Shown in pieces: positions 676 to 38,679 of a stretch of DNA of 64,000 bases (positions are counted from its first letter, which is position 1; each line of letters starts with the position of its first letter). Source of the DNA: Struthio camelus (taxonomy: Eukaryota > Chordata > Aves > Struthioniformes > Struthionidae); assembly GCF_040807025.1 (NCBI RefSeq), contig NC_090945.1, positions 39,363,088-39,427,087 on the forward strand, written 5' to 3'. The notes below the pieces were generated by a model. It was given only the letters and a program-made list of their open reading frames with translations. It searched no databases and was not told where the DNA came from. Position numbers and translations under genes: made by a program.

Positions 676-787
676 GACTCGTCTTATTTTCAGTCAGCTT
701 GGGTATGAAGATTACAGTGCAGTTAACGTACAGGTTTTAGGGTCTGAAGATGCATATGGACCTCATGCTAGAAGAACTATAGATGGT
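676..787 (+). CDS. AtuA-like gene, first coding exon in window
   Basis: The acceptor is the ttgttgcag ending at 675 and the donor is GT at 788 (gtaagt). One base completes a codon split with an upstream exon outside the window, followed by 37 codons ending in phase 0. The product holds LGYEDYSAVNVQVLGSEDAY and GPHAR, matching the conserved LGY-DY and GADS-YGPHAR segments of the AtuA N-terminal domain. The incoming split codon proves that at least one more exon lies upstream. Confidence 0.9.
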
Positions 788-36700: not shown

Positions 36701-38679
36701 TGCCTTAATACTATTAAGGAGTTTGATTTGGGCACGGGGGAGGAACAAGGGGAAGGCCAAGGGTTAATTTTCAGTTGACTTATATATATCACAGAATCAC
36801 AGAATCGTTTAGGTTGGAAGGGACCTCTGGAGATCATCTAGTCCAACCTCCCTGTTCAAGCAGGGTCACCTAGAGCATATTGCCCAGGATCACATCCAGA
36901 CGGCTTTTGAATATCTCCAGCGAAGGAGACTCCACCACCTCTCTGGGCAACCTGTTCCAATGCTCTGTCACCCTCACAGTGAAGAAGTTTTTTCTCAGGT
37001 TCAGATGGAACTTCCTGTGGTTCAGTTTCTGCCCATTGCCTCTTGTCCTGTTGCTGGGCACCACGGAGAAGAGGCTGGCCTCATCCTCTTGACACTCCCC
37101 CTTCAGATACTTGTACACGTTGATGAGATCCCCTCTCAATCTTCTCTTCTCCAGGCTCAACAGGCCCAGCTCTTGCAATCTTTCTTCATAGGAGAGATGC
37201 TCCAGCCCTCTAATCATCTTGACCCATATGCTTGACCCAGCAGCGGGGGACATCGTTACAAGCTTAAAATTTTTGCATGCTGCCTCTGGCTTGGTGTTCT
37301 GTATAAGTTGGCTTCCTTTTTTGTTTGTTTGTTTTTCATCTACTAAAACGCAACTTGTAAATTTTATTTTGCAGATATGAGTTGCCCGGAATCCATGGAT
37401 TAAATTTTGTTCTGAAGAATGCCCTTGGTGGTGGTGGCATAGCATCCCTAAGAAGTGACCCACAGGCATGTATCTAAGCATTTAATGTAGTTACCTTTTA
37501 TATTTATGTATTGCATTGTCTCTTTATAACCAGCTTTTAGGCTGGAACAGTAAGCAGTAGTTTTTGACTGTGTAGTTCTTTTTGATTTCACATGAATACA
37601 CATTATCTACCGCATTAAAAACTATGTAGTGAAGTATAGAGCTGATTTAGAATATTTAGTAGAAAAGATGTGTGCATATGAAAGGTAGCTGATTTGAAGA
37701 CTCTTACGAGTTGGATGTCCTTTGCAATGTGCTACCTATGTTTTTAGATATACCAGTTAAATCAGATTCTCAAAAATGCTGTCAAATTTTGGAGAATAAG
37801 AATTTACTAGACAGTTCTAATTAACTGTTTCCTTGTACATGTAGCAGCCATCAACTGTGAACTCCATTTGACTTTGCAAGAGTTCTACAAAGCCACATCA
37901 AGCAAAGCCTATGATTAATATAGTTAAATTATAGCTAATTAATATAAATATGAAGAGCGGGGAAAGATGCATAGGAGATTTTTTGTGTTGACCACATTAT
38001 TTGGATCTGAAACTAAAAAATGTTTACAAGTGTACATTTCAGATATTAAGCATTTGAAAACGTCTCTTAAACCTGAAGATAATATCCCTTAACGTGGTAA
38101 TGCTGTGGCTACAGTGAAGTATAATTCTGCCACCATAGGCTGAGAAATGCCTTAATTTGCAAATGATCGCAGCATGGTCAACAAGACTATTCACAAAGTA
38201 TGAATAGTGTGTGAATCAGATGGTAGAAGTGAAACTGAAAAATAATTTTTGTGCTAGGTAACAAACAGACTGAAGAAACTCTGGTCAATCTAATTAAGAT
38301 TAAATGCTTGAAAACCCTAACCGCATAGTTTTCCTTACTTAAGTATTTTGATTTACTAGTGAGAAAGCCAAATGAATGGAAAAGGTGAATATAACTTGTG
38401 TGAATATGCAATCCAAGGCTTGCAAAAACTCACCCAAAATTTATATGTATGTATATATAAACACACAAAAAAAAATTGTGAAGCATAATGAACGCATGTT
38501 CTGATTATGGAAAAAAAAATCCTATTTAACAGTTTTAAAAAACTGAATTGAAAAAGAGGGTGTATTTAGATTGTGTGTGTGTGTGTGTTTGTTTTTTCTT
38601 ACAGGGCAAAGCACTTGGACAGATGTTGTTGGATTTCCAGATAAAGAATGTTCCTGATTTAAAATCACTAATAGAATAA
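676..38679 (+). CDS. AtuA/DUF1446-family protein, 3' part of gene (nine coding exons, 5' end outside window)
   Basis: Spliced CDS: 676-787, 7517-7616, 17313-17352, 18824-18875, 22854-22965, 28265-28348, 29904-30027, 37375-37465, 38605-38679. Every junction keeps frame (790 nt: one base of a split codon, 262 codons and a TAA). Seen: family motifs in the expected order, LGYEDY and GSEDAYGPHAR, PREAVIWLAVHH, EIAAAGTGMA, PGLTGVVGGRPRVSPV, then the C-terminal ferredoxin-like domain with LAYTRSGDKGNSANIGVIARHP, ELPGIHGLNFVLKNALGGGG and DPQGKALGQMLLDF. Known: the namesake AtuA is encoded in the Pseudomonas acyclic-terpene (citronellol/geraniol) utilisation cluster; its biochemical role is not settled, and the animal members have no function I know of. 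Bacterial members are roughly 450-600 residues, so some 200 or more N-terminal residues should lie before the window. No signal peptide or membrane segment is visible in this part, suggesting a soluble protein. The family call is firm; the function is unknown. Confidence 0.9.
788..7516 (+). other. Intron of AtuA-like gene
   Basis: A 6.7-kb intron. It holds a degenerate TA-rich 17-bp tandem repeat near 3148-3198 and poly(T) tracts. No further exon is needed by phase or homology and no gene was recognised. Confidence 0.8.
3148..3198. repeat. AT-rich tandem repeat, about 17 bp, three degenerate copies
   Basis: Units of the form atacaagtgtattatat recur with small changes; the first and third copies share atacaagtgtatt exactly. 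Confidence 0.6.
7517..7616 (+). CDS. AtuA-like gene, second coding exon in window
   Basis: The acceptor is gaagcag ending at 7516 and the donor is GT at 7617 (gtaaat). The exon is 33 codons plus one base. It encodes GPREAVIWLAVHHKQKEAVE followed by IFSKEIAAAGTGMA (the last codon is completed by the next exon), the family segment resembling RE-VLWIAARH...EIF-REIAPAGTGMAPG. The acceptor tract before it (tttttggaagcag) is a weak polypyrimidine tract, but homology and phase fix the boundary. Confidence 0.9.
14465..14479 (+). other. G-quadruplex motif
   Basis: Four GGG runs are separated by single bases (A, A, T). Three one-base loops is the most stable class of intramolecular parallel quadruplex. 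It lies on the sense strand of an AtuA-like intron, so it could form in pre-mRNA as well as DNA. Confidence 0.7.
15680..15709. repeat. CATA / CA microsatellite
   Basis: A run of catacatacatacata passes into cacacaca, followed by a C-rich tract. Confidence 0.8.
17313..17352 (+). CDS. AtuA-like gene, 40-nt exon carrying the GLTG-GGRP motif
   Basis: The acceptor is ttcatttccag ending at 17312 and the donor is GT at 17353 (gtaagt). Two bases complete the Ala of the previous exon, twelve codons encode PGLTGVVGGRPR, and two bases begin the next Val. This small exon would be missed by an ORF scan. It carries the most characteristic glycine-rich motif of the family. Confidence 0.9.
18824..18875 (+). 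CDS. AtuA-like gene, 52-nt exon
   Basis: The acceptor is tgtgtctag ending at 18823 and the donor is GT at 18876 (gtaaga). One base completes Val and 17 codons encode SPVLKPFFFLYPKSNVQ, continuing the SPV-R-FSFL-PK segment of the family. It ends in phase 0. Confidence 0.9.
20687..20734. repeat. Exact 24-bp tandem duplication
   Basis: The unit beginning cttgcagtcaaggatctgat occurs twice head to tail without a mismatch (20687-20710 and 20711-20734), indicating a recent duplication in an intron of the AtuA-like gene. Confidence 0.9.
22854..22965 (+). CDS. AtuA-like gene, exon for the end of the N-terminal domain
   Basis: The acceptor is a strong polypyrimidine tract ending in cag at 22853 and the donor is GT at 22966 (gtatgt). 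It has 37 codons plus one base, encoding a segment starting INLFLNGQHVETF and ending in the linker NSELK. The residues between the two domains are poorly conserved in the family, so this assignment rests on splice sites, continuous phase and the flanking exons. Confidence 0.85.
23977..24024. repeat. 24-bp tandem duplication with two mismatches
   Basis: Units 23977-24000 and 24001-24024 begin gtatttctcaaaac and end gtaataga, differing at two bases. Intronic. Confidence 0.85.
26031..26056. repeat. Exact 13-bp tandem duplication
   Basis: ctcactaaatagt occurs twice in direct succession. Intronic. Confidence 0.9.
28265..28348 (+). CDS. AtuA-like gene, start of C-terminal ferredoxin-like domain
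   Basis: The acceptor is atattgtctag ending at 28264 and the donor is GT at 28349 (gtattc, a weaker donor). Two bases complete Asp, 27 codons follow, and one base begins Gly. It encodes LPSGPHTYRLEDLAYTRSGD then KGNSANI. The ARSGDKGN-ANIG motif is the signature of the C-terminal AtuA ferredoxin-like domain, making this the clearest family marker in the gene. Confidence 0.92.
28349..29903 (+). other. Intron of AtuA-like gene
   Basis: A 1.6-kb AT-rich intron. Nothing was recognised beyond poly(T) tracts. Confidence 0.8.
29904..30027 (+). CDS. AtuA-like gene, ferredoxin-like domain, second exon
   Basis: The acceptor is tacctgacag ending at 29903 and the donor is GT at 30028 (gtgagt). Two bases complete Gly, 40 codons follow, and two bases begin Arg. 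It encodes VIARHPLYYPYLKKTLTAQA and then a short charged segment with EREQPEEKLV. The IGVIAR motif formed across the junction with the previous exon is conserved in the family. Confidence 0.92.
31617..31632. repeat. Poly(G) run of 16
   Basis: Sixteen consecutive G on the plus strand in an AtuA-like intron. The exact length is prone to sequencing error. Confidence 0.85.
34626..34812 (-). mobile_element. CR1 non-LTR retrotransposon, 3'-end fragment
   Basis: Three copies of the CR1 terminal octamer (cacagaat on the plus strand, ATTCTGTG on the sense strand) are followed by the classic GGTTGGAAGGGACCT and AGATCATCTAGTCCAACC segments, so the 3' end lies at the lower coordinate and the element is antisense to the AtuA-like gene. 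Only the 3' UTR and the last few dozen codons of ORF2 remain. Homology breaks off after the sequence ctgttcca near 34800; a few bases (gttcag) may continue across an internal deletion. Confidence 0.93.
35982..36018. repeat. 11-bp tandem repeat, 3.4 copies
   Basis: ttcagttactc is repeated three times exactly, with a partial fourth copy. Confidence 0.9.
36790..37225 (-). mobile_element. CR1 non-LTR retrotransposon, 5'-truncated copy with ORF2 C-terminus
   Basis: This is the same subfamily and orientation as the copy 2 kb upstream. The minus-strand frame ends at 36870 and encodes the well-known CR1 ORF2 tail, with RGLEHLSYEERLQELGLLSL, RLRGDLINVYKYLKG, and HWNRLPREVVESPSLEIFK. The frame is intact over the retained part (about 110 codons). 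5' truncation is near 37225, as usual for target-primed reverse transcription. It lies about 150 bases upstream of an AtuA-like exon. Minus-strand ORF sequence beyond the element is antisense to that exon and is not part of CR1. Confidence 0.95.
37375..37465 (+). CDS. AtuA-like gene, ferredoxin-like domain, third exon (GC donor)
   Basis: The acceptor is attttattttgcag ending at 37374. One base completes Arg, and 30 codons encode YELPGIHGLNFVLKNALGGG and then GIASLRSDPQ. The family continues DPQGKAL, which requires the exon to end after CAG at 37465, leaving a GC donor (gcatgt) instead of GT. A GT four bases downstream (37470) would shift the frame. Confidence 0.88.
37466..38604 (+). other. 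GC-AG intron of AtuA-like gene
   Basis: A 1.1-kb final intron beginning gcatgt and ending ttacag, with a TG dinucleotide run at 38572-38588 just before the acceptor. No other content was recognised. Confidence 0.8.
38572..38588. repeat. TG dinucleotide repeat
   Basis: A TG run lies within 20 bases of the acceptor of the last AtuA-like exon. TG tracts near acceptors can affect exon inclusion in other genes. Confidence 0.85.
38605..38679 (+). CDS. AtuA-like gene, last coding exon and stop
   Basis: The acceptor is tttttcttacag ending at 38604, preceded by a TG run. There are 24 codons, GKALGQMLLDFQIKNVPDLK then SLIE, and TAA at 38677-38679. The GKALGQ-LLD motif is the usual C-terminal strand and helix of AtuA proteins. 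Confidence 0.92.
   Translation, partial: GKALGQMLLDFQIKNVPDLKSLIE

Follow-up and report, generated by a model that had tools for sequence, protein, structure and literature searches.

AtuA is encoded in the atuRABCDEFGH cluster (acyclic terpene utilisation) of Pseudomonas and other Proteobacteria and, like the animal protein described here, it carries two Pfam domains, AtuA (PF07287) and AtuA_ferredoxin (PF23544), in one chain. The closest solved structure is that of CmlA, subunit A of citramalate lyase (PDB 9erq and 9evf), which was deposited as an AtuA family protein and names pyruvate and ADP (adenosine diphosphate) in its entry title. Here we analysed a 64,000-nucleotide stretch of the ostrich (Struthio camelus) genome, positions 39,363,088 to 39,427,087 of contig NC_090945.1, referred to as the window. 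It almost certainly contains a gene of the AtuA family that is intact in the part covered. The window holds the 3′ part of this gene, and the upstream exons for the first ~380 residues lie beyond it.

The AtuA-family gene runs from 676 to 38679 on the + strand in nine exons, and their in-frame join gives 262 codons followed by TAA. An acceptor AG precedes nine of nine exons and a donor GT follows exons 1-7, whereas exon 8 has a GC donor and exon 9 closes with TAA. Splice phases were consistent across all nine exons, and the product is 262 residues long. The nine-exon model of the original prediction was thus borne out by sites and phases, and the exon coordinates agreed with those given there. 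Exons were located from reading frames at the predicted positions, from searches restricted by splice phase and from known motifs of the family. A strict consensus ranking of splice sites returned two candidates, neither of them among the nine exons, because several of the splice sites are weak. The exons, as read in the window, are as follows.

676..787, + strand: exon 1 within the window, TRLIFSQLGYEDYSAVN...RRTIDG, the tail of PF07287, with AG ahead and GTAAGT behind, supported by homologues
7517..7616, + strand: exon 2, GPREAVIWLAVHH...GTGM
17313..17352, + strand: exon 3, 40 base pairs, APGLTGVVGGRPRV
18824..18875, + strand: exon 4, VSPVLKPFFFLYPKSNVQ
22854..22965, + strand: exon 5, the linker joining the two domains
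28265..28348, + strand: exon 6, with the RSGDKGNSANIG motif, where PF23544 begins
29904..30027, + strand: exon 7 of the AtuA-family gene
37375..37465, + strand: exon 8, YELPGIHGLNFVLKNALGGGGIASLRSDPQ, followed by the GC donor CAG/GCATGT
38605..38679, + strand: exon 9, the last coding exon, including the TAA stop

A CAG at 7514-7516, just 5′ of exon 2, is a possible NAGNAG alternative acceptor that would add one Q, and the chicken model reads DGQGPREAV. Exon 3 is absent from the partial Buceros and Phaethon gene models. The GC donor of the last intron lies at 37466-37471, and the models of Columba guinea (pigeon, P0183) and Anomalospiza (passerine, P0179) break exactly here, reading through as ...DPQACIK. 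The penguin and chicken models go on with GKALGQ after exon 8, the same join as in the window; a snake model (P0005) also diverges directly after DPQ, with different letters. The read-through in pigeon and passerine therefore suggests that a GC-AG last intron is common to birds, and some public models of this gene seem to be truncated at the GC donor. The intron before exon 8 also holds two near-identical repeat ends (GGTTGGAAGGGACCTCTGGAGATCATCTAGTCCAACC) on the + strand at 34658 and 36814, which we take to be avian CR1 ends.

The original prediction had placed the gene in the AtuA family and proposed a Pfam search, which confirmed the assignment. The joined product matched PF23544 with an E value of 3.6e-36 (124.3 bits against a gathering threshold of 27, model positions 2-113 of 113) and PF07287 with an E value of 1.4e-6 (27.8 bits against 22.8, model positions 345-434 of 437), the latter in its tail only. 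The full chicken homologue of 646 residues matched both models nearly end to end, with 446.9 bits for PF07287. NCBIfam returned no family for the joined product. The ADP-ribosyl cyclase model of Pfam matched only weakly (E 0.26), which was taken as chance. The gene belongs to a known protein family and is already in NCBI as 'uncharacterized protein LOC...' models without a name: chicken LOC100857197, penguin LOC103902324 and bat LOC118711147, annotation models only, are the same gene as that in the ostrich window. Identity to the window product was 239/262 in chicken, 248/262 in penguin and 72.5% in the Pipistrellus bat. Among the matches listed, homologue names gave no function, except that mussel and bacterial entries bear the family name AtuA. 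Open-access literature, covered by title and start of abstract with most subscription journals outside, yielded no paper on the animal gene or on an AtuA-family citramalate lyase; a term search of PMC1382263, which deals with ancestral gene families that mammals have lost, found neither 'terpene' nor 'DUF1446'.

For the sequence comparison, 15 bird and 49 other vertebrate rows were picked from 240, and six partial or odd bird models (P0002, P0004, P0179, P0181, P0183 and P0217) were excluded beforehand. The product aligned without gaps to 15 of the 15 bird homologues and so is no chance assembly; 236-248 of its 262 residues were identical, with emperor penguin the best. At 14 positions the ostrich deviates from the bird majority residue, and none of these is among the 65 columns invariant in the 49 non-bird vertebrates. 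The deviating columns were more variable than random ones (mean entropy 1.53 versus 0.80 bits, permutation p 0.001, a guide only, as the rows are related). In an alignment of 75 animal and bacterial rows, the window part kept all 24 invariant and all 35 nearly invariant family residues. Neither a stop nor a frameshift was found in the nine exons. This conservation pattern, together with the absence of stops, makes it very likely that the part within the window belongs to a working gene. Here, too, the earlier claim of an open frame with intact family motifs stood for the window part, at 59/59 such residues.

Homologues were present across animals. With the window product as query, they were found in birds, a snake, a bat, a marsupial, many fish, molluscs, an acorn worm and Nematostella (120 of 911 matches listed). 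The Nematostella protein in turn matched corals, hydrozoans, lampreys, hagfish, an acorn worm and a ribbon worm (120 of 7996 listed). For the bat protein, the 7997 candidates sharing most words were scored (lengths ~250-796 residues), and 15 mammalian rows or near-copies stood among the 120 of 5165 matches listed: seven named bats (query included), one mole, four marsupials, one echidna, and two rows 97% identical to Myotis over 58% of the query. The other matches listed came from turtles, a crocodilian, squamates, birds, amphibians, sharks and bony fishes. Any full-length orthologue from a placental would be expected to score above the marsupials in this list, yet no named primate, rodent, carnivore or ungulate was among these 120 matches, in a database from which human sequences may be left out. 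The only placentals named there were bats and one mole; many bats and moles are insect eaters.

A tree of 79 picked rows, 21 of them of unnamed origin, was built by a quick method without bootstrap. A branch with full support in the Shimodaira-Hasegawa-like approximate likelihood ratio test (SH-aLRT 100) split 23 named animals and 15 unnamed rows from 35 bacteria and 6 unnamed rows, and within mammals bat and mole were joined by koala and then by echidna. The tree is not tidy: the 'animal' label needs four changes, unnamed rows lie among the animals, the order of gar and ray is wrong relative to the species tree, and the hydrozoans stand apart from the other cnidarians. On these sequences, the simplest reading would be descent from an early animal and later loss in several placental lineages. 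The ancient origin that had been proposed is upheld, since the gene spans cnidarians, lampreys, hagfish and sharks to bats. The narrower idea of a vertebrate gene kept in birds and lost in some mammals needs revision: retention is not confined to birds, as echidna, marsupials, bats, mole, reptiles, amphibians, fishes and invertebrates have the gene, and the loss in some mammals agrees with the mammals named in the bat list.

We also compared the protein with its bacterial relatives and their loci. A scan of prokaryote genomes found at least 592 relatives in at least 596 stretches, of which the best 80 were kept; in the best segment, spanning ~600 residues, these were 46-52% identical to the chicken protein, and nearly all were labelled Proteobacteria. 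In an Alcanivorax locus (L015) the order is TetR-like regulator, AtuA, short-chain dehydrogenase/reductase, carboxyltransferase, acyl-CoA dehydrogenase, crotonase, biotin carboxylase and acyl-CoA ligase, the neighbours being named to enzyme class only by best NCBIfam matches, nearly all under curated cut-offs. Searches with the Alcanivorax proteins located both carboxylase subunits near AtuA in 57 of the 80 loci, and both plus the crotonase in 52.

At the N-terminus, 27 of 27 picked named animal proteins have 37-70 residues before the first conserved motif, with 3-12 Arg/Lys and 1-5 Asp/Glu. Of 80 bacterial proteins, 56 showed the motif, and 46 of these had at most 13 residues ahead of it, with start codons placed by script at the nearest candidate. 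In the chicken model, residues 1-32 have a predicted local distance difference test score (pLDDT) under 50 and form an unstructured stretch. Such a segment may be a mitochondrial presequence, as judged from sequence and model.

The AtuA-family protein shares the fold of CmlA. The original prediction had called substrate and role unknown, and this match to an acetate-releasing citramalate lyase narrows the field, while the role in animals is itself inferred. Neither the single joined protein nor its C-terminal domain gave a credible match when searched against the PDB, and the C-terminal domain had no match to any second citramalate lyase subunit in the lists, an absence that proves nothing. 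The chance that the animal protein is an acetate-removing lyase appears about even; we are less sure of a terpenoid substrate. The ~640-residue protein would consist of a presequence-like N-terminus, the AtuA domain and a fused AtuA ferredoxin-like domain. Its most likely role would be that of a mitochondrial carbon-carbon lyase taking acetate off a tertiary 3-hydroxy acid or acyl-CoA. The likeliest type of substrate would be 3-hydroxy-3-isoprenylglutaryl-CoA, arising by carboxylation and hydration of a beta-methyl isoprenoid acyl-CoA, and removal of acetate would let ordinary beta-oxidation proceed beyond the methyl branch.

A bolder reading, with a probability of roughly one in four, is that animal mitochondria shorten beta-methyl isoprenoid acyl-CoAs by carboxylation, hydration and acetate removal. 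This route would be the counterpart of the Atu pathway of bacteria, and methylcrotonyl-CoA carboxylase and AUH, or enzymes related to them, would feed the AtuA lyase. It would be ancestral in animals, lost in most placentals, humans probably included, and kept in some bats and a mole. For the main reading, that of a mitochondrial acetate-removing lyase, the location, the chemistry and the substrate class are what we infer, and several observations weigh against them. Identity to CmlA is just 15-16%, the profile alignment is confined to the N-terminal part, outside the part coded in the window, and a smaller profile reached the CmlA chain only at an E value of 0.92; a common fold is in any case no proof of activity. 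One or both carboxylase subunits were missing from the fetched flanks in 23 of the 80 loci, some on short contigs and some not, and the locus carboxylases are known by sequence match only, which does not imply the use of geranyl-CoA. An excerpt of a review (PMC4097962) assigns the same lyase step to LiuE, not AtuA. Furthermore, six other models (P0048, P0129, P0133, P0138, P0177 and P0196) have odd or shortened N-termini; the presequence view comes from composition in picked models, and the nearest-start rule favours short bacterial N-termini.

The same lyase chemistry might instead act on a small acid. Citramalate or 3-hydroxy-3-methylglutaryl-CoA would yield acetate and pyruvate or acetoacetyl-CoA, and the enzyme would serve organic-acid, leucine or itaconate metabolism, not terpenes. 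This alternative is possible, though doubtful. It draws on the sole solved relative found, a citramalate lyase subunit with pyruvate and ADP in its title, and no animal terpene carboxylase was shown, although none was looked for, a point that also counts against the isoprenoid route. However, the animal proteins are ~50% identical to fused proteobacterial AtuA over ~600 residues, versus 15-16% to CmlA, and the presence of both carboxylase subunits in 57/80 of those bacterial loci likewise argues against a small-acid substrate.

The neighbourhood of the gene bears on another explanation. The window contains a complete coding sequence for LRAT (lecithin retinol acyltransferase) in two exons on the same strand, in a CpG-rich stretch 6.4 kilobases 3′ of the AtuA-family stop.

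45050..45598, + strand: LRAT coding exon 1, from ATG to donor (PF04970, E 3.9e-39 on the open reading frame 44969-45880)
46175..46327, + strand: LRAT last coding exon, FCETVKMIIRDQRS...FFLWMAG and stop, presumably the LRAT C-terminus

The NCBI symbol lratb.1 was found on 12 of the 120 AtuA rows listed for the bat query (of 5165), all fishes, sharks or rays. In a Pogonophryne albipinna model (P0019), LRAT exon 1 runs on into the AtuA tail, with the join, as judged by eye, at the boundary of exon 2 in the window; this reflects either genes lying in tandem or a fault of annotation. From these names and the one fused model, the two genes may have been linked since early jawed vertebrates. Retention of the AtuA-family gene beside LRAT through an action on retinoids or through common control elements would account for the short same-strand distance, the shared symbol and the fused model, and is improbable: linkage by itself is silent on substrate, symbol and fusion are possibly annotation effects, and cnidarians carry the AtuA-family gene too, whereas LRAT proper is usually regarded as a vertebrate gene. 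A second CpG-rich stretch at ~60000-61800 (GC content 0.53, CpG observed/expected ratio 0.77 in a 2-kilobase bin) is perhaps the start of another gene; seven open reading frames tested there had no Pfam match.

That the ostrich copy is a decaying relic is very improbable. The position of the N-terminal exons beyond the window and the non-standard GC donor at exon 8 leave room for decay, but the nine exons are open, 0/65 vertebrate-invariant columns are altered and the 59 family residues are kept. Moreover, the pigeon and passerine models point to a GC donor at this site as well, and in penguin and chicken the models connect the same two exons across it. Recent bacterial transfer or contamination, to which the ~50% identity to bacterial AtuA might point, is scarcely credible given nine exons with splice signals, the repeat ends at 34658 and 36814 within the intron before exon 8, and the clustering of vertebrate rows with other animals in the tree.

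A metabolic enzyme retained in animals from corals to bats would be without a name or an assigned function and would probably lack a human counterpart, and therefore studies of human and mouse would rarely come across it. If the proposed isoprenoid route is true, birds, fish and some mammals process isoprenoids unlike humans, which is relevant to diet, to toxicology and to the use of the chicken as a model. Because the recent citramalate lyase structures give the AtuA family a likely chemistry, the animal enzyme is directly testable. CmlA, a 456-residue chain, aligned to model residues 36-493 only and so is without the fused C-terminal domain of the animal protein. Unlike bacterial AtuA, the animal gene has many exons and no operon, and a basic stretch of 37-70 residues stands ahead of the first motif in all 27 picked animal proteins.

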